A stretch of DNA of 64,000 nucleotides from Solwaraspora sp. WMMA2056. GTDB lineage: Bacteria; Actinomycetota; Actinomycetes; Mycobacteriales; Micromonosporaceae. The position numbers and the translations under genes were made by a program. The DNA lies in the NCBI RefSeq assembly GCF_030345095.1, contig NZ_CP128360.1, forward strand, positions 2,666,001-2,730,000, written 5' to 3'. The notes under the pieces were generated by a model. That model saw nothing but the letters and a program-made list of their open reading frames with translations, ran no database searches and was not told the DNA's origin. Below, piece after piece: positions 2,095-18,791 of this stretch (the first letter of the stretch is position 1; each line of letters begins with the position of its first letter).

Positions 2095-3297
2095 TCAGTC
2101 GCGGCGTAGCGCGAGCATCGCGATGTCGTCGACCAGCGGCCGGCCGTCGACCAGGGCGCTCATCACCGATACGCAGGCCGTCTCGGCGCTCGACGCGGTG
2201 ATCGCCTCGCATACCTGCCGCAGCCCGCTGTCGATCGTCGGCCCGCAGCGCTCCACCAGCCCGTCGGTGAAGAAGAACAGCAGGGAGGCGGGGGTGAGGT
2301 CGACGGTGCTGACCCGACGCGGCCGGTCGATCCGGGTGCCCAACGGCAGATCGGCGGGGACCTGCAGGCAACGTGCCCCGTCGCCGTCGACCGCCACCGG
2401 TGGCGGGTGCCCTGCGGTGGACATCGACACCACCGTGGCGGTGGGGTCGATGGTGGCGTAGCAGACGGTGGCCATCATCCCCGGCTCGAAGTGCTGCACC
2501 TTGCGGTCCAGTCGGGCGAGGACGTCGGCCGGGTCGGTGGTTTCCAGAGCGTACGCGCGCAGTGCGCTGCGCAGCCGGCCCATCACGGTGGCGGCGTGCA
2601 GGCCCCGTCCGGTGACGTCGCCGATCGCGACCCCGACCCAGCCGTCCGGCAGCGGCAGTACGTCGTACCAGTCGCCGCCGACCCCGACGTCGTGCCCGGC
2701 GACGTAGCGGGCCGCGAACTGCAGACCCGGCACCGTCGGCAGGTCGGTGGGGAGCAGGTCGTGCTGCAGCGCGACGGTGGTGGTGCGGTCGACCTGACGT
2801 TCCCGGGCCTGACTGGCCATGGCGATCCGGTCGGCGACGAGACGCAACATCTGTTCGTCGTCGGCCCGGTAGATCCGCTGCTCCCGGCTCGCCACGTGCA
2901 GTACGCCGGTGACGCTGCCGCCGATGGTGACCGGGACCGCCAGCAGCGACCGGATGCCCTGGGCGCGCAGCCCGGGGTGGGCCAGTCTGTCGTCGTCGGG
3001 GTCGGCCAGCCGCACCGCCGACCCGGACGACATGACCTGCCCGGCGTACCCGCGACGCAGCGGCAGCCGCACCGGGTGACCGTGGAACGCCTCGATGCCC
3101 CAGGCGGCGGCGGTGACGAGTTGCTGCGAGTGGGCGTCGAGCAGGCAGACCGCTGCGGTGTCGACGTGGAGCAACTGGCCGGTCCTGGCCAGTGACTCGA
3201 CGAGGAGGGCGTCGAAGCTGAGTCCGGACAGGGCAGGGTCGGTCACCGCCTCGATACGTTTGAGGCGCTCACCCGCGTTTTCGCCCTCGGCCTGCAC
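2095..3297 (-). CDS. GAF domain-containing SpoIIE-family protein phosphatase
   Basis: A 400-residue protein with an N-terminal GAF sensor domain (residues about 25-165) and a C-terminal PP2C/SpoIIE (RsbU-like) serine phosphatase domain (about 180-400). The phosphatase metal-binding segments are visible: GGDWYDV near 205, IGDVTGRG near 225 and FFTDGLVE near 340. Such proteins dephosphorylate anti-sigma-factor antagonists in partner-switching stress pathways, but no antagonist or anti-sigma gene lies nearby, so the target is not known. It is convergent with the MmyB-like gene, with a 27-bp gap, and reads toward it. No transmembrane segment is visible. Confidence 0.9.
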   Translation of the reverse strand: MQAEGENAGERLKRIEAVTDPALSGLSFDALLVESLARTGQLLHVDTAAVCLLDAHSQQLVTAAAWGIEAFHGHPVRLPLRRGYAGQVMSSGSAVRLADPDDDRLAHPGLRAQGIRSLLAVPVTIGGSVTGVLHVASREQRIYRADDEQMLRLVADRIAMASQARERQVDRTTTVALQHDLLPTDLPTVPGLQFAARYVAGHDVGVGGDWYDVLPLPDGWVGVAIGDVTGRGLHAATVMGRLRSALRAYALETTDPADVLARLDRKVQHFEPGMMATVCYATIDPTATVVSMSTAGHPPPVAVDGDGARCLQVPADLPLGTRIDRPRRVSTVDLTPASLLFFFTDGLVERCGPTIDSGLRQVCEAITASSAETACVSVMSALVDGRPLVDDIAMLALRRD

Positions 3298-3650: not shown

Positions 3651-3717
3651 GGAGGTGTCGGGCACCGGAGGTCTCGGGCCGCCGGAGGTGTCAGGCCGCC
3701 GGAGGTGTCAGGCCCGG
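3651..3717. repeat. four imperfect 16-17 bp tandem repeats
   Basis: Copies beginning GGAGGTGTC (or GGAGGTCTC) occur at 3651, 3667, 3684 and 3701, separated by CGGGC/CAGGC and CACC/CGCC. They fill most of the gap between the C-A-T synthetase and the ACP gene, and the fourth copy contains the synthetase stop codon (3708-3710). On the transcribed strand the units read TGACACCTCC. Confidence 0.75.
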
Positions 3718-6700
3718 ATGGTGGCCGCGTCGCGGACGACGTCGGCGATCTCGGCGATCGTCGGGGCGTCGAAGAAGGTCTCCAACGGCACCTCGACGCC
3801 GAGCCGCCGGTGGATCCGGCTGCTGATCCGGGTGACCGTGAGCGAATGCCCGCCCAGGTCGAACAGGTCCTCGTGCAGACCGATCTCGGGGATCTGCAGC
3901 ACGTCCTGCCAGATCGTCCGGATCTCGGCCACGATCGGGTCCGCCGATTCGGGGTCTGTCGCGGCGGGGTCCGCCGCCGGCGCCACCGTCTCCGGGTCCG
4001 TCGGTACCACCGTCTCCGGGTCTGTCGGCGCCCGGCCGGCGACGTCGCGGGTCGGGGCCGGCAGGGCGGCGCGGTCGAGTTTGCCGTTCGGGCCCGTGGG
4101 CAGCTGGTCCAGCAGCACCCAGGCACCCGGCACCATCACCGCTGGCAGCGTCCGGGTGAGATGCTGGCGCAGCTGCGTCACGGTCGGTGCCGTCCCGGCC
4201 GGGACGAGGTACGCGACCAGCTGGCGGGTGTCGTCCGGCACGGCGCTGCCGTCGTCCGGTGCCGTCCCGGTGTGCAGCAGCACCGCCGCCTGGGCGATCG
4301 ACGGATGCTCCAGCAGCCGGGCGGTGATCTCGCCGAGTTCGATCCGGTGGCCGCGGATCTTGACCTGGTCGTCGGCTCGGCCGAGGAACTCGATCTGTCC
4401 GTCCGGCAGCCACCGGCAGACGTCCCCGGTGCGGTAGCAGCGGGCGGCGGCGTCCCCGGCGGCGAACGGGTCGGTCACGAACCGTTCGGCGGTCAGCTCC
4501 GGCCGGCGAAGGTAGCCGGCGGCGACGCCGGCCCCGCCGAGCACCAGTTCACCCGGTACGCCGACCGGCACCGGCCGGCCACGCTCGTCGAGCAGGTACG
4601 CGGCGGTGTGCGGCAGCGGCCGCCCGATCGTCACCGCCGCCGGATCGGGCGGGATCTCCGCCATCGTCGCGTAGATCGTCGCCTCGGTCGGCCCGTACCC
4701 GTTGACCAGCCGGTCCACCCGCGCGCGCAACTGGCGGGCCACCGGCACCGGCAGCTCCTCGCCGCCGGTGACCGCGACCAGCGGGTCGGCCAGGCCGGCC
4801 GCCAGCAGCACCTGCCACCCGGACGGTGTCGCCTGCAGGTGGGTGACGCCGGTCTGGCGGACCAGCCGCAGCACGCCGGCACCGTCCAGGGCGCTCACCC
4901 CGGTCGCGACCACCACCGTCCCACCGGTGGTCAACGGCAGGTAGATCTCCACCGCGCTGATGTCGAACGACAGTGACGTCAACTGCAGCCACCGGTGACC
5001 GGGGCCGCCACCGAACCGGTCGCGCATCGCCTGCACGAGGTGCGCCAGGGCACCGTGCGGCACCACCACGCCCTTGGGACGACCGGTCGAGCCGGAGGTG
5101 TAGAGCACGTACGCCACGTCGTCGGCCCCGGGCCGTTGCGTCGGCTCCACCGGGCCGGGCAGGACGCACAGTCCGGCGAGGTCGGGCAGTCCGGCGAGGT
5201 CGCCCGGGTCGCCACCGGCGCCCGGGTCGCCACCGTCGGCAGGCTCGCTACCGTCGGCAGGCTCGCTACCGTCGGCAGGCTCGGTCCGGTCGAGGGCGAG
5301 CACCGGGACGCCGGTCGGCAGTCGGGCGGCCACGGCGGCCGTGGTGACCAGCAGCGCCGGTTCGGCGTCGCCGACGATCATCGTCTGCCGTACGGGTGGA
5401 TGTCCGGGGTCGACCGGCACGTACCCGGCGCGGCAGCGCATGGCGGCGAGCTGCGCGGCGATCGCCTGCCAGGACCGGTCCAGCGCCACCGCGACCAGCG
5501 ACCCCGCCCCGACGCCGAACTGGCGGAAGATCGCGGCGAGGCGGGCGCTGGCGGCGTCCAGTTCGGCGTAGCTGAGCTGCCGGTCGCCGTCGATCACCGC
5601 GACCGCCGCCGGATCCCGGCGCACCTGCGCGGCGAAGAGCTCCGGCACGGTGGCGGGTTCGGGGCGGCCCCGGTCGCCGGCGGCGAACACCCGGGTCACC
5701 TGGTCGAGTTCGTCGGCGGACAGCAACGGAAGGCCGTGGACCGGCTGGTGCGGGTCGGCGACCACGGCGGCGAGCATGATGCGCAGGTGCGTGCCGATCC
5801 GGGCGACCGCGTCGGCGGGGATCGCCGACGGGCTGTACTGCAGGCTCAGCTCGACCAGACCGACAGCGGCATCGCCTCCGCCGCCACCGTCGGACCCGCC
5901 ACCGCCACCATCGCCGCCACCGTCGGACCCGCCGTCGGATCCGGATCCGGATCCGGGTCCGTCGACGACCTGCAGGTGCAGCGCGTTGCGGGCCGCTCCG
6001 CAGAACAGTGACCATTCGACGCTGCTCGGTACGCCGTCGAACACCGGCGCCGCGCCGCGTCGTCGGTAGCCGACCGACACCGGGGTGACCGACGGTGCCG
6101 GGCGCAGGCCGGTGACCACCTGCGCCAACGGCACCGACCGGATCGCGTTCAACGCGCGGACCTGCCGCCGCACGGCCGCCGCGTGGTCGCCGAAGCCGCC
6201 GTCGGTGACGGCGACGCACACCGGCAGTTCGTTGACGAACAGCCCGATCTCGTCGGCGGTGCCCGGCGTGCGGGTGGACAGTCCGACGCCGACCGGCACC
6301 TGCCGGTTGCCGTACCGGTCGAACACGGCCAGCACGACGGCGAGCAACAGTTCGAAACGGGTCACCCCGAGCGTGCGGCGGGCCCGGTCCAGCCCGTGGA
6401 CCAGGTCCGCGTCGAGGGTGACCGGAATGCTGGCACCAGGTTCGGCGGCGACCGGCACCCGGGTGAGACCGGGCAGGACGACGCCGCCGGGTCCGGACCA
6501 GTGAGCGGCCCAGTGGGCCCGGGCGGCCGGGATCCCGGCCGCGACCCGGTCACGCTCCGCCGTCGCCCAACTCGCCGGGCCGGCCGCCGGCACCGCGTCC
6601 GCCGGACCGTCGGCCGCCCGACCGGCCGGATCGTCCGGGGCCGGCAGCCGGACAGGCCGGCCGGCCCGCGCCGCGTTGTAGGCCACCGCCAGGTCGCGGA

Positions 6701-7124
6701 CCAGCACGTCCTTGGACATCCCGTCGAACACCAGGTGGTGGGCGGTGACCAGCAGCAGGTGCCGCCCGTCGGTGCCGGCGAGCAGGCCGAACCGGGCCAG
6801 CGGACCGGTCCGCAGGTCGTGGGCCCGGGCGATCTCGGCGGCGACGCAGGCCGGGTCGGTGGCGTCGACCGCAGGGTCGCCGTCGGTCAGTTGCGGCCGT
6901 CGGGCGGCCGGCACGAGTCGCGGTACGCCGTCGACCTCGTCGACGCGGCAGCCGAGCATCGGATGCCGGGTGACCACGGCATCGCAGGCGGCGGCCAACG
7001 CGGCCCGGTCCAGGCCGTCGCCGAACCACACCCCCAGAGCCATGTGGTACGCCGTACCGGCCACCCCGGCCTGTTCGGTGAACCAGACAGCGTGCTGTGC
7101 GTACGTGGCGTCGGCGATGCCCAC
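3708..7124 (-). CDS. nonribosomal peptide synthetase, C-A-T module
   Basis: A 1138-residue single NRPS module. Condensation domain about 5-470, with the catalytic HHLVFDG at 129-135. Adenylation domain about 490-990, with YTSGSTG at 675-681, NGYGPTEAT, the GRADDQVKIRG segment and NGKLDR. Thiolation domain at the C-terminus, with phosphopantetheine Ser1094 in DLGGHSL. My hand-aligned pocket code is D-I-V-Q-V-G-G-I-Y-K, closest to known glycine codes, so a Gly-like or other small substrate is a weak prediction. There is no epimerase or thioesterase. GTG at 7124 has AGGAGGAG 6 nt upstream; ATG at 7145 would overlap the upstream stop (ATGA) and add 7 residues. Odd features are a Gly/Ser/Asp-rich insert at about 390-420 inside the C domain and an EPADGS repeat at about 615-632 in the A domain. 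Confidence 0.93.
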   Translation of the reverse strand: MGIADATYAQHAVWFTEQAGVAGTAYHMALGVWFGDGLDRAALAAACDAVVTRHPMLGCRVDEVDGVPRLVPAARRPQLTDGDPAVDATDPACVAAEIARAHDLRTGPLARFGLLAGTDGRHLLLVTAHHLVFDGMSKDVLVRDLAVAYNAARAGRPVRLPAPDDPAGRAADGPADAVPAAGPASWATAERDRVAAGIPAARAHWAAHWSGPGGVVLPGLTRVPVAAEPGASIPVTLDADLVHGLDRARRTLGVTRFELLLAVVLAVFDRYGNRQVPVGVGLSTRTPGTADEIGLFVNELPVCVAVTDGGFGDHAAAVRRQVRALNAIRSVPLAQVVTGLRPAPSVTPVSVGYRRRGAAPVFDGVPSSVEWSLFCGAARNALHLQVVDGPGSGSGSDGGSDGGGDGGGGGSDGGGGGDAAVGLVELSLQYSPSAIPADAVARIGTHLRIMLAAVVADPHQPVHGLPLLSADELDQVTRVFAAGDRGRPEPATVPELFAAQVRRDPAAVAVIDGDRQLSYAELDAASARLAAIFRQFGVGAGSLVAVALDRSWQAIAAQLAAMRCRAGYVPVDPGHPPVRQTMIVGDAEPALLVTTAAVAARLPTGVPVLALDRTEPADGSEPADGSEPADGGDPGAGGDPGDLAGLPDLAGLCVLPGPVEPTQRPGADDVAYVLYTSGSTGRPKGVVVPHGALAHLVQAMRDRFGGGPGHRWLQLTSLSFDISAVEIYLPLTTGGTVVVATGVSALDGAGVLRLVRQTGVTHLQATPSGWQVLLAAGLADPLVAVTGGEELPVPVARQLRARVDRLVNGYGPTEATIYATMAEIPPDPAAVTIGRPLPHTAAYLLDERGRPVPVGVPGELVLGGAGVAAGYLRRPELTAERFVTDPFAAGDAAARCYRTGDVCRWLPDGQIEFLGRADDQVKIRGHRIELGEITARLLEHPSIAQAAVLLHTGTAPDDGSAVPDDTRQLVAYLVPAGTAPTVTQLRQHLTRTLPAVMVPGAWVLLDQLPTGPNGKLDRAALPAPTRDVAGRAPTDPETVVPTDPETVAPAADPAATDPESADPIVAEIRTIWQDVLQIPEIGLHEDLFDLGGHSLTVTRISSRIHRRLGVEVPLETFFDAPTIAEIADVVRDAATIRA
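5232..5285. repeat. three 18-bp in-frame tandem repeats within an NRPS gene
   Basis: The unit ACCGTCGGCAGGCTCGCT occurs at 5232-5249 and 5250-5267, and with one mismatch at 5268-5285. It encodes the hexapeptide repeat EPADGS in the adenylation domain of the C-A-T synthetase, in a loop before core motif A3. The near-identity of the copies suggests recent slippage expansion. Confidence 0.85.
5868..5957. repeat. Gly/Ser/Asp-rich low-complexity insert in C domain
   Basis: About 30 codons of nearly pure Gly, Ser and Asp, written as repeats of the GGATCC/GGTGGC/GGCGGA type, sit inside the condensation domain of the C-A-T synthetase, between the FCGAARNALHLQV segment and the GLVELSLQYSPSAI segment. 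The frame is kept through it. Confidence 0.8.
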
Positions 7125-7141
7125 GGAACTCCTCCTGGTGG

Positions 7142-8698
7142 TCATTTCAGGTCGAACAGAGCGGTCAGTTGTCGTTTAAGGACCTTGCCGGCCTCGTTGC
7201 GGGGCAACGCGTCGGTCACCACCAGCCGGGCCGGCAGCTGGTGGTCGGCGAGCCGGCCGGTGAGGAACTGCCGCACCGCCGGCAGCCGCAGCGCGGCGGG
7301 GTCGCTGCCGGGGCGGGCCACCAGGACGGCGGCGACCGCCGACCCGAGCACCGGGTGCGGTACGGCGACGACCGCCGCCTGCCCGACGGCGGGATGCTCG
7401 TGCAGCGCCGCCTCCACCTCCAGGGTGGAGATCTTGTACGCACCCGACTTGATCACGTCCTGGTGGCGGTCGGTCAGGTAGAGGTAGCCGTCGTCGTCGA
7501 GCCGGCCGAGGTCGCCCATCCGTACCCAGCCGGCCCGGAAGGTGGCCCGGTTGGCCTCGTCGTCGCGAAAGTAGGCGCGCGGATGGGCGCAGCGCAGCCA
7601 GACCTCGCCGACCGTGCCGGGCGGCAGCGGGCGGCCCTGGTCGTCGGCGATGCGCAGCGCGCCGTCGACCGGCCGGCCGACTGCGGCGTGCCGCGCCGGG
7701 TCGTAGATCATCACGGTCTGCGCGGGTGCCGCCTCGGTCGACGAGTAGTAGTTGACGATCGTCGCGGCCGGGAACGCCGCGGCGAGCCGGGCGGCCACCG
7801 CCGGGGCCAGTGCCGCCGCGGTGGAGCCGACCAGCGCCACCCCGGAGGTGTCGCAGTCGTCCAGTACGCCGGACTCCAGCAGTTCGATCGCCATCGACGG
7901 CACCAGGAACAGGGTGCCGGCGGTGGGGATCAGCCGGGCGAACCGCAGCGGGGTGAACCGGGGCAGGGTCAGCGCCGCCGCCTTCGCGGTCATCGCGTTG
8001 AACAGCATCGTCTGCCCGGCGTTGGTGCCGATCGGGAACGCGTGCAGGAACCGCTGCGAGTGCGCCAATGCCAGCCGGCGGGGGTGGGTCGGTGCCCCGG
8101 CGACCAGGTTCGCGTGGCTGGCACCGACTCCTTTGGGGCGGCCGGTGGTGCCGGAGGTGTAGAGGATCTGCGCCAGGTCACCGGGGTGCGGCAGACCGAC
8201 GCCGCCCTCATCGGCGGCACCGGACGGTTCCGTCCCGTCGGTGGTGAGCAGGTCGGCGACGGACCGGACGGTCACCCCGGCCGGCACCACCGGCGCGGCG
8301 ACGGGCCCGGATCGGGACGCGGACCCCGGTCCGGACCCGGATCCGTCGCCCATGCGTGCTCCGTGGATCACCCAGCGGGCGTCGCAGTGTCCCAGCGCGT
8401 ACGCCAGTTGACCCGGTGCGAGCCGGTCGGACAGTGGCACCGCGACCGCCCCGGCGTGCAGCACGCCGCAGTACGCCACCGCGTACCCGGTCCAGTCGCG
8501 GGCACCGAAGACCAGTCCGACCCGGTCGCCGGCACCGACCCCGGCGTCGCGCAGCGCCCGGGCGATCCGTCCGGCGTCGCGCCGCCAGTGCGCGAAGGTC
8601 AGCTGGTCGACGCCGGGCACCTCGACCGCGACCCGGTCGGGGTGCACGGAGCAGCGCCAGTCGAGCAGCTCCGGTACGGTCCGCACGGGCGCGGTCAC
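7142..8698 (-). CDS. class I adenylate-forming acyl/aryl ligase (free-standing)
   Basis: A 518-residue ANL-superfamily enzyme that activates a carboxylic acid with ATP and transfers it to a thiol. The P-loop motif YTSGTTGRPKG is at 180-190, the A5-like segment is YYSSTEAAP, the hinge region contains DRHQDVIKSG, and the C-terminal catalytic Lys is in NEAGKVLKRQ. It has no carrier domain of its own, so it probably loads the free ACP (3356-3601), although a CoA ester product cannot be excluded. GTG at 8698 overlaps the upstream stop as GTGA, with GGAG 6 nt before it. The open frame runs on to 10372, but that part is antisense shadow of the NRPS-MFS gene. A Gly/Ser-rich loop lies at about 116-132. 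The substrate (fatty, aryl or other) cannot be read with confidence. Confidence 0.9.
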   Translation of the reverse strand: MTAPVRTVPELLDWRCSVHPDRVAVEVPGVDQLTFAHWRRDAGRIARALRDAGVGAGDRVGLVFGARDWTGYAVAYCGVLHAGAVAVPLSDRLAPGQLAYALGHCDARWVIHGARMGDGSGSGPGSASRSGPVAAPVVPAGVTVRSVADLLTTDGTEPSGAADEGGVGLPHPGDLAQILYTSGTTGRPKGVGASHANLVAGAPTHPRRLALAHSQRFLHAFPIGTNAGQTMLFNAMTAKAAALTLPRFTPLRFARLIPTAGTLFLVPSMAIELLESGVLDDCDTSGVALVGSTAAALAPAVAARLAAAFPAATIVNYYSSTEAAPAQTVMIYDPARHAAVGRPVDGALRIADDQGRPLPPGTVGEVWLRCAHPRAYFRDDEANRATFRAGWVRMGDLGRLDDDGYLYLTDRHQDVIKSGAYKISTLEVEAALHEHPAVGQAAVVAVPHPVLGSAVAAVLVARPGSDPAALRLPAVRQFLTGRLADHQLPARLVVTDALPRNEAGKVLKRQLTALFDLK

Positions 8699-11600
8699 CG
8701 GGCGCTCCGGGCAGCCAGTCGGGCCTGTCGGACCTCGATGCCGACCAGGTCGTCCGGGGGCGCGTCGGGGACCTCGTCGTCGAAGCGGGACAACACCCGG
8801 GTCCGCAGCGACACGACGGCGGTCAGCCCGATGCACAGTCCGAACACGACGTACAGCAGGGCGATGCCCCGGCCCGGCCCGACGCCGATCACCGCGCCCA
8901 CCGACGTCGCCAACGCGCCGTCGGGCATCAGCAGCGGCTCCAGTACGGCGGTCGCCAGCGGCGCGATCACCCCCCAGCCGAGCGGCATCGTCGACCAGGC
9001 GACCATCTGGTTGAGGGCGAACACCCGGCCGTGGAACCGGGCCGGCACCTTGATCTGGATGATCGTGTTGTAGATGCCGTTGACCAGGCCCAACGCGCAG
9101 TACATGCCGAAGGCTCCGGCGCCGATGACCAGCAGGCTCGGGCGTAGCCCGGTCACCACGCAGGCCACTGCGATGCCGAGGGTGCCGATCAGCACGGCCC
9201 GCATCCGGTACCGGCGCGGCCCGCCCCAGACCAGCATCACCAGGCCGCCGAGGGCCGCGCCGACGCCGCCGGTGAGCGCGATCCGCGCCACCTCGGCGAG
9301 GTCGGCGAAGCCGAGCACCAGCGGCGAGAGCAGGAACAGCACCGGGAACAGGAAGAGGTTCAGCGCGGCGAAGAAGGCGAGCATGCTGCGGAACTCGCGG
9401 CGGCGCAGCGAGTAGCGCAACCCGCCGAGGATCTCCTGCCCGAGGCTCTCCCGTCGCTGCAGCGCCAACGTGCGGGGGAACCGGATGGCGATCAGCACCG
9501 CGATGGCGAACAGGTACGCGGTCACGTCGATGACCATGATGCCGGCCAGGCCGACCGCCTCGAGTGCGCCGACCGCGAGCAGCGGCACCATGAACTGGGT
9601 CAGCCCGAGCGCGGTCTGGGTCACCCCGTTGGCGTGGCCGAGGAACCGCTTGGGCACCAGCTGCGGCACCGCCGACACGAACGCCAGCCGCTGGAACGCC
9701 AGCACCACCGACAGCCAGCCGACCAGCAGGTAGAAGTGCCAGATCTCGGCCCGGTCGGTGAGCAGCAGCCCGGCCATCACCGCCTTGGCCCCACCGGCGG
9801 CGACGCTCGCGGCCAGCAGCACCCGCCGGCGGCTCGTCCGGTCGATCACCGCCCCGGCCAGCGGCGCGAGCAGCAGGCCGGGCAGCAGGCTGACGATCGA
9901 GAAGAGCGCGAACCGGGCCAGCGAGCCGGTCTCCAGATAGATCCACAGTGGTACGGCGAAGTTGGTCAGTGCCGTACCGGTGGTGGTGATGATCTGGCCG
10001 GCCGCGACCAGGCCGAACCGGCGCAGGCTGGGCGGCGGCCCGGCCGGTTGGTCGGTGGGCGGCCCGGCGGCGGTACGGGACCCGACGGCGGTATCGCCGG
10101 TGGCGGGAGCAGTGGCTGCCGTGCTGACGGCGGCCGCCGCCCCCCGGTCGGAGACCGCCACCAGCCGCCACCCCGGATCCGGGGAGTCGTCGGCCGGTGA
10201 GTTGTCCGCCGGCACCGGGCCGGAGGATCGTGGTCCGTCGGCGGTGGCGTCGGACAGGCCGAGGTGGCTGCCGGTGACGATCGACGCCAGCTCCGCCGCC
10301 CGGTACTTCAGGAAGTAGTGCCCCGCCTCGTCGATCACCGCCAGCGCGGTGCGGTCGGTCAGGAAGTGCCACTCCTGGAACCGTTCCTGATGGAAGTCGG
10401 TGCTGCGGTCCTGCTCGCCGACGACCGAGATCACCGGGGCCCGCAGCGGGGTGACCCGGTCACGCAGCAGCGCGGTGAAGTACTCCTCGGAGACCTGCGC
10501 GTCGTGGCGCATCGCCCGGATCAGGAACGCCATCTCGTCCGGGTCGAGGGACCCGACCGCGGTGCCCTGCGCCTGCAACCAGGTCCGGTAGATCCGGTCA
10601 CTGCGGATCCGGTCCACCAGGCGCATCCGTAGCAGCGGTCCGAGGAGGCCGCCGCTCGGGCGGCCGAACGGGAAGACCGCGCCGAGGTAGACCGCCGTCA
10701 GGTCCCGACCGGCCGCCTCCAACCGGCGGGCCACCTCGGTGGTGACCGCGCCGCCCGGCCCACAGTGTCCGTACAGGATCACCGGCCCGTCGACCCGGTC
10801 GAGGATCTCGCTGACCACCCCGTCGGCGATCTCCTCGATCGGTGCCGGTTCGTCGGCCAGGCCGATGTCGTGACCGGGCATCGCCACCGACAACAGCCGG
10901 TATCCGGGCGGCAGGGCGTCGGCCAGCGGCTGGTAGACGACCGCGCTGCCACCGCCGTACGGGACACAGACCAGGGTCGCGACCGGCCGTCCGGTGGTCA
11001 CCGGGGCGGTCAGCTCGTGCAGCAGGCCGTCGGCCCGCGCGGCACCGTCGGTAAGCAGCGCCGCGAGGTCACGTACGGTCCGGTGCCGGAACAGGTCCAT
11101 CACGGTGACCGACGGCCGTTCGACGTCGGGGCGGACCTGCGGCAGTTGCCGGCGCAGCCGGGCGATCACCTGGGTGGCCAGCAGGGAGTGTCCGCCCAGG
11201 TCGAAGAAGTCGTCGGTGGCACCGACCCGGGGCACCTGCAGGACGGCCTGCCAGATCTCCGCGATCATCGTCTGCACCGGGCCGTGCGGCGCGACGTACG
11301 CCCCGGTGGGTGGCCCGTCGGACGGCTCCGGCAGTGCCGCCCGGTCGACCTTGCCGTGGTCCTGCAGTGGGAGCCGGTCCAGCCAGCAGAACCGGGCGGG
11401 GATCATGTGGTCCGGGAGCCGGTCGGCGAGCAGCCGACGCAGCTCGGCGGGCTCCGGGGCGGCCGGTGGGTCGGCCCTGGGCGCTGCCGGCTGGTCGGCC
11501 CGTTCCAGGTAGCCGACGAGCCGGTCGTCGCGCAGCAGCGCGGCGGCCTGCCGGACCCCGGGCAGTTCCCGCAGGGCCGTCTCGACCTCACCCAGCTCCA

Positions 11601-14367
11601 CCCGGTAGCCACGGATCTTGACCTGGTGGTCGGTGCGGCCGAGGAAGACCAGGTTGCCGTCGGCGCGCCATCTGCCGAGGTCGCCGGTGCGGTACAGCCG
11701 GTCGCCGGGGGCACCGGACGGGTCGTCGACGAACCGCTGCGCGGTCAGTTCCGGCTGGTGCAGGTAGCCCTCGGCGAGCCGGTCGCCGCCGAGGTAGATC
11801 TCGCCGGGCACCCCGACCGGCACCGGCCGCATCCGGGTGTCGAGCACGGACACCCGGGCGTACGGCAGCGGCCGTCCGATAGGGACGCTGCCCGGCCCCC
11901 GCTCGTCGGGTGACACCCGGTACGTGGTGACGCCGACCGTCGCCTCGGTGGGGCCGTAGTGGTTGAACACCGGCACCCCGTGCCCGGCCAGCTCGGCGGC
12001 CCAGGCCAGGTCGGCCGCCTCACCGCCGAGGATCAGGGCCCGCCGGGGCAGCAGCCGGGCGGTGCCCGCCTCGGCGGCCAACGCCCGCAGATGCGACGGG
12101 GTCATCTTCAGGTAGTCGATGGCGTCGGACCGCAGCACCTCGGCGAGTTCGTCGCCGGTGCACCGGCGGGGCACCAGGTGCACGCAGCCGCCGGTCGCCA
12201 GCGCCAGGTAGAAGACCGTCACGCTGAAGTCGAACGACAGCGACTGCAGCAGCGCGTACCGGGCGGCCGGCACCACGGCGAACCGTTCGGCGACGCCGTC
12301 GAGGTAGTTGAGCACCGGCCGGTGGGCGACCGCGACCCCTTTGGGCACCCCGGTGGAGCCGGAGGTGTAGATGACGTACGCCAGGTCGTCGCCGCCGGCA
12401 CCGCCGTCCGGTGGGCGCGTCGGTCGACGCGCCAGCTCCGGGCCGATCCGGTCCAGGCAGATCGCGGCCGCCACCGCCGGTGGCGCCGCGTCGCCACCGA
12501 GCCCGGTACGCACGGTGGTGCTGGTCAGTACGGCGGCCGGCGCGGCGTCGGCGAGCATCAGCGCCAGCCGGGCGGTCGGCTGCTCCGGATCCAGCGGCAG
12601 GTACGCGCCACCGGCGCGCAGCACCCCGAGCAGGGCGACGGCCAGCTGCACCGACTGCTCCAGGCAGACGCCGACCACCCGGCCGGGGCGTACCCCGTGT
12701 TCGCGCAGGTGGTGGGCCAGCTGGTTGGCCTGCCGGTCCAGGTCGGCGTAGCTGATCCGGTCGTCGCCGCAGACCACCGCCGTCGCCTGCCCGGCGGCCA
12801 CCGCGTGCCGGGTGACCAGGTCGGCCAGGGTGGCCGCCCCGGCGGTCACCGGGCGGGGCCGGTCTGCCGGCGGCACCGGCCCGGTCGCGTACCCGTCCAG
12901 CTCCCGCCGCTGCGCGGCGTCGAGCAGCGGCAGGTCCACCACCGGCCGGTCGGGTGCGGCCACGGCGGCCCGCAGCAGCGCCTGGTAGTGGCCGGCGAGC
13001 CGGGCCACGGTCGCGGCGTCGAACAGGTCGGTGTCGTAGACCAGCATCGCCCGCAGCAGCCCGTCGTCGGTTTCGCTGACGTACAGCGACAGGTCGAACC
13101 GGGCGGCGGCGGCGTCGCTGCCGAACGCCGCGGTCTCGATCCCCGCCGGCCACCGGCTCTGCGCCCGCCCGTAGTTCTGCAACGTGAACAGCACCTGGAA
13201 CACCGGTGCCCGGCTGACGTCGCGGCTGACGTTCAACTCCTTGACCAGCCGTTCGAACGGCACCTGCTGGTGGCTGAGCGCCCCGAGCACCCGGCGGCGG
13301 GTACGCCGCAGCACCTCGGCGAAGCTCGGCTCCCCGTCGTCGGCGCCGGGCTCCCCGCTGTCGCCGTCGCCGCGCTGCCCAACGGCACCGCGCTCGCCTG
13401 CGGCGTCGGTGCGCGACAGGTCGGCGCGGATCGCGACCGTGTTGACGAAGAGCCCGACCAGGTTCTCCACCTCCGGCACCACCCGGCCGGCGACCGGGGA
13501 GCCGACGGCGAAGTCCCGCTGACCGCTGTAGCGCGACAGCACGGACTGCCAGCCGGCGAGCAGGATCATGTAGAGGGTGCTGCGGTGCGTGCGGCCGAGC
13601 CGGCGCAGCCCGGCGGTCAGCTCGGCGTCGACGGTGAACCGGTGTACGTCACCGGCGTACGACTGCGCCGCCGGCCGGGGCCGGTCGGTCGGCAGGTCCA
13701 GCGCCGGCACCCCGGCCAGCGTCGTCGTCCAGTACGCCAGCTCCCGTTCGGCGGCCGGACCGTCGGCCCGGTCGCGCTGCCAGCGGGCGTAGTCGACGTA
13801 GTCGATGGCCGGCGGTGGCGGCACCGGCCGGCCGTCGGTGAGCGCGCCGTAGAGGGTGGCGACCTCGGTGAGCAGCAGGTTCAGCGACCAGCCGTCGCTG
13901 ACGATGTGGTGCATCCCGACGTGCAGCACCTGGTCGCCCTCGCCGAGGCGGACCAGCAGCGCCCGCAGCAGCGGGGCGGCCGCCAGGTCGAACGGCGACC
14001 GTACGGCGTCGTCGACCAGCCGCCGGGCGTGTGCCTCGTCGACCGCGTCGGTCACCGTGAACGGCACCGCGACCTCCGGCACCACCTCGACCTGCGGCTC
14101 ACCGTCGGGGCTCTCGGTGAACCGCATGCGCAGGCTGTCGTGGCGGGCGGCGACGGTGTCCAGCGCGGCGCGCAGCAGCCCGGCGTCGAGCGGCCCGCGC
14201 ACCCGTACGGTGCTGTGCACCACGTAGCCGGCGGTGCCCGGGGTCAGCTGCTCGGTGAACCAGATTCGCTCCTGGCCGAACGACAAAGTCGGACTTTGCC
14301 CTTTTCGGTGCTGAATCACGTGTGATTGAATAGGGATGTCCTGCGCTGGTAGGTCAAGATTCGTCAC
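8695..14367 (-). CDS. NRPS (C-A-T-TE) fused to MFS transporter
   Basis: A 1890-residue fusion. Condensation domain about 25-465 (HHIVSDG at 153-159). Adenylation about 520-1020 (YTSGSTG at 667-673, NHYGPTEAT, HGKVDR). Carrier domain with Ser1061 in DLGGHSLL. Thioesterase about 1120-1370, with nucleophile segment GHCGPGG (Cys1202), Asp1320 and His1350. A disordered Ala/Pro/Ser linker lies at about 1377-1450. An MFS-type transporter of about 11-12 helices fills about 1450-1865, with an interhelix DRTSRRR motif. The pocket code read by hand is D-F-T-K-I-G-H-V-G-K, very close to aspartate codes. GTG at 14367 has GAGGG 8 nt upstream; ATG at 14418 would add 17 residues. It is the first gene of the leftward operon. 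NRPS/MFS fusions occur in actinomycetes but are uncommon. Release and export in one chain is inferred. Confidence 0.92.
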   Translation of the reverse strand: MTNLDLPAQDIPIQSHVIQHRKGQSPTLSFGQERIWFTEQLTPGTAGYVVHSTVRVRGPLDAGLLRAALDTVAARHDSLRMRFTESPDGEPQVEVVPEVAVPFTVTDAVDEAHARRLVDDAVRSPFDLAAAPLLRALLVRLGEGDQVLHVGMHHIVSDGWSLNLLLTEVATLYGALTDGRPVPPPPAIDYVDYARWQRDRADGPAAERELAYWTTTLAGVPALDLPTDRPRPAAQSYAGDVHRFTVDAELTAGLRRLGRTHRSTLYMILLAGWQSVLSRYSGQRDFAVGSPVAGRVVPEVENLVGLFVNTVAIRADLSRTDAAGERGAVGQRGDGDSGEPGADDGEPSFAEVLRRTRRRVLGALSHQQVPFERLVKELNVSRDVSRAPVFQVLFTLQNYGRAQSRWPAGIETAAFGSDAAAARFDLSLYVSETDDGLLRAMLVYDTDLFDAATVARLAGHYQALLRAAVAAPDRPVVDLPLLDAAQRRELDGYATGPVPPADRPRPVTAGAATLADLVTRHAVAAGQATAVVCGDDRISYADLDRQANQLAHHLREHGVRPGRVVGVCLEQSVQLAVALLGVLRAGGAYLPLDPEQPTARLALMLADAAPAAVLTSTTVRTGLGGDAAPPAVAAAICLDRIGPELARRPTRPPDGGAGGDDLAYVIYTSGSTGVPKGVAVAHRPVLNYLDGVAERFAVVPAARYALLQSLSFDFSVTVFYLALATGGCVHLVPRRCTGDELAEVLRSDAIDYLKMTPSHLRALAAEAGTARLLPRRALILGGEAADLAWAAELAGHGVPVFNHYGPTEATVGVTTYRVSPDERGPGSVPIGRPLPYARVSVLDTRMRPVPVGVPGEIYLGGDRLAEGYLHQPELTAQRFVDDPSGAPGDRLYRTGDLGRWRADGNLVFLGRTDHQVKIRGYRVELGEVETALRELPGVRQAAALLRDDRLVGYLERADQPAAPRADPPAAPEPAELRRLLADRLPDHMIPARFCWLDRLPLQDHGKVDRAALPEPSDGPPTGAYVAPHGPVQTMIAEIWQAVLQVPRVGATDDFFDLGGHSLLATQVIARLRRQLPQVRPDVERPSVTVMDLFRHRTVRDLAALLTDGAARADGLLHELTAPVTTGRPVATLVCVPYGGGSAVVYQPLADALPPGYRLLSVAMPGHDIGLADEPAPIEEIADGVVSEILDRVDGPVILYGHCGPGGAVTTEVARRLEAAGRDLTAVYLGAVFPFGRPSGGLLGPLLRMRLVDRIRSDRIYRTWLQAQGTAVGSLDPDEMAFLIRAMRHDAQVSEEYFTALLRDRVTPLRAPVISVVGEQDRSTDFHQERFQEWHFLTDRTALAVIDEAGHYFLKYRAAELASIVTGSHLGLSDATADGPRSSGPVPADNSPADDSPDPGWRLVAVSDRGAAAAVSTAATAPATGDTAVGSRTAAGPPTDQPAGPPPSLRRFGLVAAGQIITTTGTALTNFAVPLWIYLETGSLARFALFSIVSLLPGLLLAPLAGAVIDRTSRRRVLLAASVAAGGAKAVMAGLLLTDRAEIWHFYLLVGWLSVVLAFQRLAFVSAVPQLVPKRFLGHANGVTQTALGLTQFMVPLLAVGALEAVGLAGIMVIDVTAYLFAIAVLIAIRFPRTLALQRRESLGQEILGGLRYSLRRREFRSMLAFFAALNLFLFPVLFLLSPLVLGFADLAEVARIALTGGVGAALGGLVMLVWGGPRRYRMRAVLIGTLGIAVACVVTGLRPSLLVIGAGAFGMYCALGLVNGIYNTIIQIKVPARFHGRVFALNQMVAWSTMPLGWGVIAPLATAVLEPLLMPDGALATSVGAVIGVGPGRGIALLYVVFGLCIGLTAVVSLRTRVLSRFDDEVPDAPPDDLVGIEVRQARLAARSAR

Positions 14368-14502
14368 CCAGGCCGCCCTCAATCTCTCGTCATGAACCAT
14401 CAGCCTGACTTGCGTCATCGAGACATGGGAATCAACTTTTGGTGCAAGGTGGTGCAGACGAACGATCGATTCGCTGCACGTCGTGCCGTCGTACCGTCAG
14501 GA
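14368..14502. promoter_or_regulatory. bidirectional control region of the NRPS cluster
   Basis: The spacer between the leftward NRPS operon and the rightward condensation-like genes is visibly richer in A/T than its surroundings, as is the adjoining start of the NRPS gene (from about 14280). An imperfect palindrome CGAACGATCGATTCG lies at about 14460-14474 and could be an operator. No clear pair of -35/-10 boxes was found. Both coding frames continue into the region, so the exact starts remain uncertain. Confidence 0.45.
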
Positions 14503-15912
14503 ATGCGATTCGCGGATGCTGTCGTGCCCACCGAGTGGGCCATGGACGATCTGATCCACGCCGAGTTTCACGCGGGCCGCACCGACCGCGGCCCGATGAC
14601 CTGGGCCCAGCAGGTGATGTGGCGCGCCGCCACCTTGTCGAAGACCCAGCACCTGTTCCTCAACCTGCGCCGGGTGCTCGCGGTGCCCCGCCGGGCACCC
14701 GACGACCTGACCAGCGTGGCGCGGGCGATCGGCACCCTGGTCGGCCGGCACGCCGGGCTGCGGACCCGGGTCTGCCCGACTCCGGAGGGCACCGACCGCC
14801 AGGAGGTCGCCGCCGCTGGGCAGGTGCCGATTCTGGTCGTGGCCGGTGCCGGTGACGGCAGCGAGGCCGCCGCCGGGTTGATGCGCCGCCTCGGCGACGT
14901 CGCGTTCGACCACGCGCGGGAGTGGCCGGTGCGGTTCGCCGTGGTCCAGGTCGACGATCGGGTACGCCAACTGGTACTGATCTTCAGTCACTCCACGGTG
15001 GACGCCTATGCGGTCGACGTGGTCCTGCGTGACTTGCGGTTGATTCTGCTCCGGGGCGACCTGCGCACCCCCGCAGGGCTGCAGTCGCTGGACGTGGCAC
15101 GCCGTCAGCACGGCCCCGACCAGGCCCGGTCGGACCGGGCGGTGGCGTACTGGGCCCGACGGTACGAGCGGCTGGCCGGCACCCCGTTCGACCAGGTGGC
15201 GCCCGAGCTCACCCCCCGGCTGCGCCGGGGCACCCTGGTCTCGCCGGCCGTCGCCACCGCCGCCCGGATGATCGCCGCCACGCATCGCACCAGCGTTTCC
15301 ACGGTGCTGCTCGCCGCGTCCACGGCGCTCGCCGCCGGCGCGACCGACCGGCAGGTCTGCGGTTTGTTCAACATGGCGCACAACCGATTCCGACCCGAGT
15401 ACGTCGACGCCGTGGCCAATCTTGGACAGATCGGCTTCTGTTTCCTTGATGTTGCCGACCGGCCGAGTTTCTTCGAGCTGCTACCACGGATCTACCGGGT
15501 CGCGCTAGACGGCTATTCGCACGCCTACTACGACACCGCAGCGATGCGAAAGAATTTCGAGACGATGGGGTACGACTACACCACGGCATTTCTCCCGCAC
15601 TACTATTTCAACGACGTACGGTTGCCGGCAGGCAACGCGCTCGACGACGTCGTCGAGCGGTCCGAGCCTCAGCTACGGGCCGCCGCCGAGCGCAGCACCT
15701 TCAGCTGGACCGACGGGCTCGACGTCGCCTCCTGGCACCGGCTGATCCACGTCGTGGACGCCCCGGACGCCGTCGGGCTCACCCTGAGCGCGGACAGCCG
15801 GTTCCTGCCACCGGAGACGGTCGAGCCCTACCTGCGGGACCTGGAGCGGCTGCTGATCGAGGCCGCCCACCGTGACGTCGGCTGGCCCTGGCAGCCCGGC
15901 GGGCGCGGCTGA
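14503..15912 (+). CDS. stand-alone condensation-domain-like protein, copy 1
   Basis: A 469-residue protein of the chloramphenicol acetyltransferase/condensation fold. The equivalent of the HHxxxDG motif is SHSTVDA, with the likely catalytic His at 163 and Asp at 167 kept, but the first His and the Gly replaced. Later segments GQIGFCFLD and PHYYFNDVRLP are shared with the next gene, so the two are tandem paralogues. There is no carrier or adenylation domain. It is divergent from the NRPS operon and probably part of the same pathway, perhaps as a trans-acting acyltransferase or ester/amide-forming enzyme (inference). The start is uncertain: ATG 14503 has AGGA immediately before it; ATG 14539, GTG 14524 and ATG 14392 are alternatives. 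Confidence 0.85.
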   Translation: MRFADAVVPTEWAMDDLIHAEFHAGRTDRGPMTWAQQVMWRAATLSKTQHLFLNLRRVLAVPRRAPDDLTSVARAIGTLVGRHAGLRTRVCPTPEGTDRQEVAAAGQVPILVVAGAGDGSEAAAGLMRRLGDVAFDHAREWPVRFAVVQVDDRVRQLVLIFSHSTVDAYAVDVVLRDLRLILLRGDLRTPAGLQSLDVARRQHGPDQARSDRAVAYWARRYERLAGTPFDQVAPELTPRLRRGTLVSPAVATAARMIAATHRTSVSTVLLAASTALAAGATDRQVCGLFNMAHNRFRPEYVDAVANLGQIGFCFLDVADRPSFFELLPRIYRVALDGYSHAYYDTAAMRKNFETMGYDYTTAFLPHYYFNDVRLPAGNALDDVVERSEPQLRAAAERSTFSWTDGLDVASWHRLIHVVDAPDAVGLTLSADSRFLPPETVEPYLRDLERLLIEAAHRDVGWPWQPGGRG

Positions 15913-15920
15913 GCCGTCCG

Positions 15921-17273
15921 GTGCCCAACATTCGGGTCGCCGCGTCGTCGGCCGCCGTGGCACCGCTGACCTGGAGCCAACGCGCCACCTGGCCGGACCG
16001 GGCCGCCTTCGACACCGCCCCGGCGGTGCCCTACCTGCCCCGCACCCTGCGGGTGCCCGACCGGGTCGACGCCGACGTCGGGCGGCTGAGCCGGGCGGTC
16101 GGGCTGCTCGTCGAGCGGCACGCGGCGCTGCGAACCGGCTTCCAGCCGGCCGGCGACGACCTGTGCCAGGTGGTCGCGGCCACCGGCACGCTGCCGGTGC
16201 GCCTGCTCGCCGTACCGCCGTCGCGGGCCGACCCCGACGGTGCGCGGGCCGCGACGGAGCTCGCCGCGGAACTGGCCGCCGACCCGGTGGACCACCGTGA
16301 CGAGTTCGCCCTGCGGGTCGGTCTGGTCCGCTGCGGTGACCGGATACGTCAGGTGGCGCTCGCCTTCAGCCACGCCGTGGTCGACTTCCACGCCGCCGAG
16401 ATCCTGCTGCGGGACCTGCGGCTGGCGGTGCTGCGCGGTGCCGTACCCGGACCGGCCGGCTGGCAACCGGCGGACGTCGCCGCCGACGAGGCGCGCCACG
16501 GCGGCCCCCGGTCGCAGCGGGCGGCGCGGCACTGGCTCGCGCAGTTCGAGCGCCTGCCCGCCGAGATGTTCCCGGCCGGGGTCGGTGCCGGGTCGCATGA
16601 TCCGGTCGGCGCCGGGCCACGGCACCGGGTCGCCCGGTTGGTCTCCGGCGCGGTGGACCTGGCCGCCCGGGCGGTCGCCGCCCGGTACGGGGTGAGCACC
16701 GCCACGGTGCTGCTGGCCGCGATCGCCCTGGCGGTCGCCGACCGGGCCGGCACCGACGGCTGTGGGCTGGTCACCATGTCCAGCAACCGGTTCCGGGTGC
16801 ACCACCGCACCGCCGTCGCCAGCCTCAACCAGATCGGACTGTGTCACCTCGACCTGACCGGCCGGCGTCGCCTCACCGACCTGCTCGGCCCGACCTGGCA
16901 GGCGGCACTGGCGGCGTACCGGCACGCCTACTACGACCCGGCGACGCTGGCGGCGGCGTTCGCCGCGCGTGGACACCACCTCGCCTCCGCGTTGGCACCA
17001 CACTGTTACGTCAACGACCTGCGGCTGCCCCGGGAGAGCGGGCCGGCACCGGTCGCCGACCGGGCGGCACTGTGGGCCGCGACCGACCGCAGTGTGCTGA
17101 CCTGGCTGCCGGCACCGGACCGGTTTGCCTGGCGGTGCCGCTGGCAGGTGATGGACGACCCGGGCGGGGCCGCGCTGGTGGTCACGGCGGACACCGGGTA
17201 CCTGCCGCCCGGCGACGTCGAGGACCTGCTGGTCACCGTCGAGGCGAGCCTGGTGCGGGCCGCCGGCGGCTGA
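15921..17273 (+). CDS. stand-alone condensation-domain-like protein, copy 2
   Basis: A 450-residue paralogue of the preceding gene, starting 9 nt after its stop codon at GTG 15921 and clearly co-transcribed with it. The active-site segment is SHAVVDF (His151, Asp155), again missing the first His and the terminal Gly of HHxxxDG. It shares NQIGLCHLD, the HAYYDPATL segment and PHCYVNDLRLP with copy 1. The proteins are well diverged, so they likely have different acceptor or donor specificity, or act as a heteromer (inference). It could also be inactive and scaffold-like, since the motif is degenerate, but the His-Asp pair argues for activity. A strong hairpin follows at 17341. Confidence 0.87.
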   Translation: MPNIRVAASSAAVAPLTWSQRATWPDRAAFDTAPAVPYLPRTLRVPDRVDADVGRLSRAVGLLVERHAALRTGFQPAGDDLCQVVAATGTLPVRLLAVPPSRADPDGARAATELAAELAADPVDHRDEFALRVGLVRCGDRIRQVALAFSHAVVDFHAAEILLRDLRLAVLRGAVPGPAGWQPADVAADEARHGGPRSQRAARHWLAQFERLPAEMFPAGVGAGSHDPVGAGPRHRVARLVSGAVDLAARAVAARYGVSTATVLLAAIALAVADRAGTDGCGLVTMSSNRFRVHHRTAVASLNQIGLCHLDLTGRRRLTDLLGPTWQAALAAYRHAYYDPATLAAAFAARGHHLASALAPHCYVNDLRLPRESGPAPVADRAALWAATDRSVLTWLPAPDRFAWRCRWQVMDDPGGAALVVTADTGYLPPGDVEDLLVTVEASLVRAAGG

Positions 17274-17609: not shown

Positions 17610-18791
17610 TCAGCGGGCGCTGGCTCCGGCCCGACGCTTGGTCCACACGTCGAAGGCGACCGCAGCGAGCAGCACCGCGCCCTTGACCAGCATGACGTTC
17701 TCGCTGGACGCGCCGATCAGTGACATGCCGTTGTTGATCACGCCCATGATCAGGCCGCCGGTGACCGCGCCGATCACCTTGCCGACCCCGCCCTGCACGG
17801 CGGCACCGCCGATGAAGGCGGCGGCGATCGCGTCCAGCTCGAAGGTGTTACCGGCGGTCGGTCCGGCCAGGTTGAGCCGGCCGGCGAAGACGATCCCGGC
17901 GACCGACGCCAGCACACCCATGTTGACGAAGATCCAGAAGACCACCGAGCGGGCCTTCACCCCGGACAGCACTGCGGCCTGCAGGTTGCCGCCGATGGCG
18001 TAGATCTGCCGGCCGAAGACGGCGCGCTTGGTCAGCAGGGAGTAGCCGAGCACCAGCGCTGCCAGCAGCACCAGCACCCAGGGCAGGTTCTTGAACCGGG
18101 CCAGTTGCACGATGACGAACAGCACCACCGCCGACGCGCCGAGGATCTTCAGCAGGAACAGCGGCAGCGGCTCGACCGCCTGGTCGTAGCCGAGCTTGGC
18201 GGCCCGGGCCCGCCACTGGCTGACCGCGATCCCGCCGACGGCGAACAGGCCGATCAACAGACTTGTCAGGTCCGCGCCGCCGAGCGGACCGAGTCCGATG
18301 TTGCCCAGATAGCCTTCGGTGAAGCCGTTGGCGAGGGTGCGGACCGGGTCCGGGAACGGCCCGATGCCCTGGTTGCCGAGCACCGTCAGGGTCAGCGCCC
18401 GGAACAGCAGCATGCCGGCGAGGGTGACGATGAACGCCGGAATCCCGAAGTACGCGATCCAGAAGCCCTGCCAGGCGCCGATCGCGGCACCGGCGATGAC
18501 GGTGATCAGCAGCGCCAGCGGCCAGGGCACGTCGTGCTCGACCATCAGGACGGCGGCGATCGCCCCGGTCACCCCGACCACCGAGCCGACCGACAGGTCG
18601 ATGTGCCCGGCGATGATGATCAGGATCATCCCGATCGCCAGGATCAGCACGTACGAGTTCTGCACGATGATGTTCGAGATGTTCTGCGGCTGCAGCAGCG
18701 CGCCGTCGGTCAACACCGCGAACAGTGCGACGATCAGCCCGAACGCGATGTAGATCCCGCTCTCGCGGATGTTGATTCGGGCGGCGTTCAC
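17610..18791 (-). CDS. mmsB: sugar ABC transporter permease, MmsB/GguB type
   Basis: A 393-residue integral membrane protein of the BPD_transp_2 (ribose/xylose) permease family with roughly ten hydrophobic segments. The family signature [12 protein letters not shown] lies near residue 62, and a later EAA-like loop is in [18 protein letters not shown]. The length and the long hydrophilic central loop ([11 protein letters not shown]...) match the GguB/MmsB class that handles multiple monosaccharides such as arabinose, galactose, xylose and glucose. It is the last gene of a leftward operon with mmsA (4-bp overlap) and the ChvE-type binding protein. Substrate assignment is inferred from the family and from the linked ara genes. 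Confidence 0.93.

Follow-up and report, generated by a model that had tools for sequence, protein, structure and literature searches.

The window, a 64,000-nucleotide stretch from Solwaraspora sp. WMMA2056, encodes a nonribosomal peptide synthetase (NRPS) module that continues in one polypeptide from condensation (C), adenylation (A), and carrier (T) domains through a thioesterase (TE) into an MFS transporter. Judged from its sequence and those of its relatives, this C-A-T-TE-MFS fusion is real, old, and conserved, and the active-site configuration of the fused TE identifies it as an ObiF-type cysteine thioesterase. We favor, with moderate confidence, the reading that the module is the last of a short NRPS line, in which the Cys-TE would release a short acyl-peptide next to an exporter tethered to it. 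That an old fusion has been retained in many actinomycetes suggests one and the same machine for the release and the export of a small molecule.

The fusion gene (8695..14418, minus strand) runs from an ATG at 14418 to a stop at 8695 and encodes 1907 amino acids in the uninterrupted order C-A-T-TE-linker-MFS. Translation and the order of Pfam domains confirm the single open frame claimed in a preliminary description of this DNA; its boundary at 8695 was correct, whereas its other boundary, 14367, is an in-frame Val codon at residue 18, and the strand (minus) had not been given. The condensation domain (residues 44-507, 12898..14289; PF00668, 345 bits) has an intact HHIVSDG motif, the adenylation domain (residues 537-1030, 11329..12810; PF00501, 254 bits) carries the Asp-like code DFTKIGHVG, and the carrier domain (residues 1052-1122, 11053..11265; PF00550) retains GGHSL. 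They are followed by the Cys-type TE (residues 1148-1377, 10288..10977; PF00975) with the triad Cys1219, Asp1337, and His1367, by a linker that varies and is biased in its composition (residues about 1378-1467, 10018..10287; characterized by composition, dN/dS, and gaps), and by the MFS transporter domain (residues about 1468-1850, 8869..10017; PF07690), from which a C-terminal tail extends to 8698; all of these lie on the minus strand. The Pfam matches, Condensation 44-507, AMP-binding 537-886, PP-binding 1052-1122, Thioesterase 1148-1377, and MFS_1 1472-1807, all exceed their curated cut-offs, with AMP-binding_C (944-1023) marginally below its own (23.5 versus 24.5 bits). Translation and Pfam therefore give C, A, T, and TE in order with their active-site motifs, as in an NRPS terminal module. 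The MFS profile PF07690 scores 63.4 bits (cut-off, 33.4) and is matched over positions 2-339 of 347; the NCBIfam model for an H+ antiporter, TIGR00900, gives 147.9 bits, which is below its curated cut-off of 319.6. PF05977, which we take to include EntS-like proteins, also matches. The GC content of third codon positions is high along the whole frame (C-A-T-TE, 0.93; linker, 0.87; MFS part, 0.96). The true start of the fusion is uncertain because the first ATG of the divergent ORF (14392) overlaps the fusion start; the first ATGs of the divergent fusion and C1 genes overlap by 27 bases (14392-14418), so that at least one true start probably lies further inside.

The TE-MFS frame is open in all seven genomes searched within the genus, and each of them carries the fusion. 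It also occurs in seven Micromonospora loci (from a named collection), in two Embleya strains and on Streptomyces clavuligerus pSCL4 (both from large plasmids), in further Micromonosporaceae, and in family f31. TE and MFS share one frame in 65 of the 76 fetched loci, which gives 66 in-frame fusions when the window is counted; the other 11 loci comprise nine fetched as a lone MFS, one MFS-only frame, and one in which the contig breaks off behind the TE. Because only the best candidates per genome were scored (10 in the draw of relatives, 7 in the class and phylum draws), the following counts are lower bounds. In the relatives draw, at least 31 of 101 genomes (own included) carry the TE-MFS frame, some of them two or three times, and the other four matched genomes have one locus cut by a contig end and three with an MFS that has no TE in frame. 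In the class draw, at least 6 of 148 genomes matched at 1e-70, own included, and the other five are all of family f31, whereas the best seven candidates from each of the 149 genomes of the phylum draw yielded no further fusion, only the own genome and a stand-alone MFS. With the TE alone as the query (up to 26 best candidates per genome scored in the relatives draw and up to 17 in the class draw), at least 47 hits were obtained in the relatives draw at E <= 4e-50, of which 46 are fusions, including L231, whose contig ends within the MFS, and the remaining one (L114) is cut directly behind the TE. In the class draw, each of the 12 strong hits (own included) is a fusion. Unfused Cys-TEs were found among the weaker hits, three in the relatives draw (33-39% identity), each of them forming the end of its protein, and two in the class draw (31-34%).

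A stop codon between TE and MFS, or absence of the fusion from close relatives, had been proposed as what would speak against it; no such stop was found among the fusions read, and the fusion is present throughout the genus genomes searched and in at least 31 of 101 genomes of the relatives draw. A sequencing or frame artefact, which the preliminary description had already thought unlikely, is ruled out, since a fusion of the same order recurs in many independent genomes. It had also asked whether order and linker are conserved: the order is the same across genomes, whereas the linker varies freely. Several fusions, L079 and L105 for example, are the final module of longer lines; in two others (L085 and L104), the upstream module is only partly in frame, and in one (L099) it is missing from the frame. 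The last of these, a lone TE-MFS protein of 769 amino acids (L099:6319-8625, minus strand; no C-A-T match in the fetched 18 kb), has Gly at the nucleophile position, and its features suggest a decayed or repurposed fusion. At another locus (L116:5908-12660, plus strand), C-A-T-TE-MFS is extended by a C-terminal APH-type phosphotransferase domain (PF01636, 105.8 bits), possibly a modifying or self-resistance enzyme in frame with synthesis and export.

The genes next to the fusion are consistent with a short assembly line. An acyl-AMP/CoA ligase-like gene (7142..8698, minus strand; PF00501) begins with a GTG that overlaps the fusion stop (GTGA), and a C-A-T module gene (3708..7145, minus strand; Pfam), whose code DIVQVGGIY is Gly-like, begins with an ATG that overlaps the ligase stop (ATGA); such overlaps from fusion to ligase to C-A-T are typical of coupled translation. 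Upstream of the fusion, on the plus strand, lie two stand-alone condensation-like proteins, both of which are divergent and retain HxxxD: the first (14392..15912, start uncertain; PF00668, 39 bits) is syntenic in relatives, and the second (15921..17273; PF00668, 53 bits) is present in part of them. Fusion, ligase, C-A-T, and the first stand-alone gene are syntenic in six fetched genus relatives and in seven Micromonospora loci, the count for one of the latter (L023) excluding C-A-T because its contig stops inside the ligase. Three of the six genus relatives lack the second stand-alone gene, and its best match in them is the first. Within the five genes, Pfam and NCBIfam find the fused MFS as the sole exporter-like domain and no hydroxylase. 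Further along, at 17610-20326, lie sugar ABC genes whose matches to GguB and GguA exceed the NCBIfam cut-offs. On the other side, a gene for a 400-amino-acid protein that weakly matches the RssB and PtsP models (2095-3297, minus strand) adjoins the cluster in five of the six fetched genus relatives; by eye it is possibly a GAF/PP2C-type regulator.

The preliminary description had recognized a TE in the fusion and overlooked its Cys-type, ObiF-like nature, which bears most on the mechanism. In the window, the nucleophile is Cys1219 in GHCGPG, and Cys occupies this position in 64 of the 66 fused TEs, the exceptions being Ser (L115) and Gly (L099). The best match of the TE among solved structures is ObiF1 (E 6.1e-26; next, 2.9e-17). 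The ObiF1 configuration, with its oxyanion His, Asp at position II, position I, and Arg1190, is described in the available text of PMC6668435. When the fused TEs are mapped on ObiF1, the oxyanion His is found in 66/66 and the equivalent of Arg1190 in 50/66; Asp stands at position II (the ObiF/RifR position) in all 66, and position I, the usual Asp site, is always small (Ala in 41, Gly in 25; Ala in the window, Gly in ObiF1). Other TEs of the same genomes differ: among 39 whose pattern was read, 32 have Ser, 2 Cys, 3 Gly or Thr (doubtful), and 2 no match to the pattern, the last two showing GRSAG by eye. These controls come from 40 places fetched from those listed in frames of more than 1000 amino acids, NRPS and PKS mixed, of which 39 gave a hit. 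Outside the fusions, Cys was thus seen in the integrated control TE L202, the sole convincing one of these two, and also in a stand-alone TE, L163. A beta-lactam-forming TE of the SulM type was rejected, since Gln-Cys-Asn, given in the available part of PMC11298585 as the mark of such TEs, is absent; a His precedes the Cys in all 66 fused TEs and in the window a Gly follows it, and Pfam and NCBIfam find no sulfotransferase among the eight window genes scanned.

The residue loaded by the terminal module bears on what such a TE would do. Codes, read from an alignment at positions that we take from GrsA numbering, were obtained for 63 of the 66 terminal A domains: 29 are Asp-like, 13 Ser, 3 Cys, 2 Thr, and 16 of other kinds. 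Asp-like, Ser, Thr, and Cys codes thus make up 47/63 terminal codes versus 5/72 readable codes of other A domains at the same loci, although the classes were defined with the terminal codes already in view and related sequences are counted repeatedly. The 72 nonterminal codes comprise 33 Gly-like, 4 Ser, 1 Asp-like, and 34 other; 29 of the 101 other A domains were set aside as unreadable or without Asp235. On the TE tree, a quick tree with some weak forks, the five code classes need 10 changes by parsimony, so the terminal-code bias does not reflect one inheritance, though the sequences are not independent. The named code closest to the window's DFTKIGHVG is DLTKVGHVGK (Asp/Asn), from PMC12283262. 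The available text of this paper backs our Ser, Thr, Cys, Gly, and Asp assignments through codes that are closely similar, and it records that Asp codes can accept beta-hydroxy-Asp. The exact codes DFTKIGHVG, DFTKVGHVG, and DFTKLGHVG were not found in the literature searched, and the accessible part of PMC11253843 contained no codes. By analogy with ObiF1, Ser and Thr could close beta-lactones and Cys a beta-thiolactone; the Asp-like code of the window would lead to a beta-lactone only with a beta-hydroxylated residue, and a terminal Asp could otherwise yield a cyclic anhydride or another product.

We propose that the line consists of the ligase, then C-A-T, then C-A-T-TE-MFS, with the divergent stand-alone condensation-like proteins alongside. 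By its codes, the chain in the window would be acyl, Gly-like, Asp-like, with Ser, Thr, or Cys last in relatives. The acyl-peptide would pass from the carrier domain onto Cys1219 of the TE, and the thioester would be resolved, most simply by the side chain of the last residue, which would close a ring. The product would leave next to the MFS exporter, which a flexible linker keeps on the same polypeptide, and the tethered MFS would take it over and export it. The coupling of release to export that the preliminary description had in mind would follow naturally from this layout. Since substrate and product are putative, we take Cys-TE release beside an exporter as the likely mode of the fusion and refrain from classing it among the beta-lactone synthetases.

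A possibility that deserves weight, though we hold it to be the lesser chance, is that the Cys-TE merely hydrolyzes the chain or transfers it onto an external nucleophile; the product, linear or macrocyclic, would still be exported by the fused exporter. The triad geometry is common to hydrolytic type II TEs, and the terminal code is Asp-like in the window and of other kinds in 16/63 cases. What tells against hydrolysis is the enrichment of terminal codes for residues with a beta nucleophile or a carboxylate, together with the Cys itself: in ObiF1, according to the available text of PMC6668435, the C1146S exchange turned beta-lactone formation into hydrolysis, and retention of Cys in 64/66 fused TEs hence argues for a chemistry that Ser does poorly.

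The fusions appear to share a history. In the MFS tree, the 66 fused domains and 11 other MFS sequences lie on opposite sides of a branch with a support of 99. The fused TEs group together in the TE tree (support, only 83), and with ObiF1 and two unfused Cys-TEs they form a group with an SH-aLRT value of 99, apart from the other TEs of the same genomes. Both are quick trees, for which long branches were warned of, and the TE tree omits control TEs that are short or below 25 bits and includes one row labeled as other (L156) that is the fused TE of G002. These topologies fit a single origin of the fusion. Over 61 proteins (those of the 66 that passed a filter on domain length), the distances of the MFS domain correlate with those of TE at 0.82 and of C at 0.81 and with those of A at only 0.56, which points to an adenylation domain exchanged more freely than the rest. 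One unfused Cys-TE NRPS (L228) is followed 56 bases downstream by a separate MFS-like gene of 421 residues and looks like a prefusion arrangement, though its MFS is only about 23% identical. Behind another unfused Cys-TE NRPS, from the actinomycete family f33 (L211), the sequence reads by eye as AzlC-type permease-like.

A more ambitious reading, which we put forward as speculative and rather unlikely, would take the fusions as a large, single-origin actinomycete family in which the ObiF-type Cys-TE closes a strained or highly electrophilic terminus and the welded exporter keeps the warhead from the cytosol, C, TE, and MFS having remained a unit in which the A domain was replaced in the course of time. 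The terminus would be a beta-lactone from Ser or Thr, a beta-thiolactone from Cys, and a cyclic anhydride or equivalent from Asp, and self-protection would be achieved by architecture.

Whether the MFS part works as a transporter also matters to the preferred reading of release beside an exporter. Identity to the six genus relatives is 90-99% for MFS, 85-98% for TE, 79-96% for A, and 76-95% for C, and MFS ranks first in conservation among the four domains in 10/10 comparisons listed. Over eight pairs, dN/dS is 0.12-0.29 for MFS and 0.09-0.25 for TE, compared with 0.25-0.48 for A and 0.29-0.42 for C; it is 0.29-0.74 for the linker and 0-0.27 for the C-terminal tail. The linker, about 80 to 90 amino acids in the window (80% A, P, G, S, T, D, or E) and 20-128 across the 66 fusions, is gapped in 8/8 pairs and is the gappiest region in 6/8. 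Selection thus constrains TE and MFS more strongly than C, A, and the carrier domain, and the linker varies freely, a pattern that speaks for a working transporter on a flexible tether. The fused MFS has 12 near-invariant charged or amide residues, nine of which are common to at least seven of nine stand-alone transporters, and D1526, R1527, R1530, K1790, and R1798 are among the conserved residues in the window; a working transporter is therefore likely. The loop 2-3 residues D1526, R1527, and R1530 are kept as acidic or basic residues in 65, 66, and 65 of the 66 fusions, respectively, and presumably represent MFS motif A. Solved structures gave no match to the MFS part at E 0.1.

It is unlikely that the MFS serves mainly as a membrane anchor or equal-dosage device and does not receive the product directly from the TE. 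The linker is indeed variable in length and sequence, unlike a rigid interdomain channel, but the MFS domain is the best conserved in the comparisons listed and has a low dN/dS, and an anchor would not need the residues shared with stand-alone transporters.

We regard it as quite improbable that the MFS is made also, or only, as a second product, from an internal start or by proteolysis. An in-frame start codon is present in 61/66 linkers, in 10/66 behind a Shine-Dalgarno-like sequence, and three Micromonospora fusions among these 10 (L019, L020, and L021) have their in-frame ATG at the MFS start, so that an extra internal start is possible in some Micromonospora. The linker of the window, however, has only two in-frame GTG codons, neither of them behind a Shine-Dalgarno-like sequence, which makes separate products by internal initiation unlikely there. 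Moreover, if separate products were sufficient, splits would be expected, and there are none among the 46 informative strong TE hits of the relatives draw.

An enterobactin-like siderophore system, with the fusion as the equivalent of EntF plus EntS, is very improbable: Ser accounts for 13/63 terminal codes and PF05977 matches, but the NCBIfam EntF model reaches 387 bits against a cut-off of 2400, the TE Asp stands at a position different from that in EntF, the window code is Asp-like, and no dihydroxybenzoate ligase model for the ligase appears among the 25 NCBIfam matches listed of 105. EntF is a C-A-T-TE protein with a Ser-loading domain and a Ser nucleophile in its TE, and EntS is an MFS exporter; as in the fusion, a terminal module is paired with an MFS exporter, but in enterobactin synthesis the two are separate genes.

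Should the hand-off from TE to MFS be real, the fusion would unite synthesis, release, and export in a single chain, which is rare, and would be a design that nature uses to handle products that are reactive. As a sequence handle, the Cys-TE/MFS pair leads to many unexplored clusters, perhaps of makers of electrophilic warheads, and a large family with changing terminal codes makes ObiF-type TE chemistry comparable side by side.

RefSeq probably uses the name "non-ribosomal peptide synthetase/MFS transporter" for what are presumably these same fusions, and the preliminary description mentions such annotations as well; to our knowledge, it is an architecture name only. The bacterial architecture is probably already named, and what is new is the link to a Cys-TE, the apparent single origin, and the bias in the terminal residue. 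Among the papers listed by our literature searches, none dealt with bacterial NRPS-MFS fusions; they included a sensor-kinase-MFS family and fungal TE-MFS lists. Two fungal models have TE and then MFS at the end of a megasynthase, a Verticillium KS-AT-ACP-ACP-TE-MFS protein (PMC9495618) and an Ophiocordyceps hybrid with Te-MFS (PMC11057048); both are genome-predicted polyketide or hybrid synthases, presented in the accessible text as domain lists without function, and are likened to the fusion by domain order alone. Type II editing TEs share the triad Asp position with the fused TE, the RifR-like triad being common among them, and ObiF1 and SulM TEs are grouped with them in the available part of PMC11298585; those sampled in the same genomes, however, mostly have Ser and all fall outside the ObiF1 group, and the fused TE, unlike them, sits in cis behind a carrier domain. 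The TE of SulM, which forms the beta-lactam of sulfazecin, resembles the fused TE in its Cys nucleophile and Asp at position II, as far as PMC11298585 describes it, but the window has His-Cys-Gly instead of Gln-Cys-Asn and a fused MFS. The closest likeness in the TE is ObiF1 of obafluorin (PDB 6N8E, C-A-T-TE), which has the same Cys, Asp at position II, small position I, and oxyanion His. It loads a beta-hydroxy amino acid, whereas the window code is Asp-like, and in ObiF of P. fluorescens, according to the accessible text of PMC6668435, the TE is followed by an MbtH-like and an aryl-acid A domain, whereas in the fusion it is followed by the MFS transporter.
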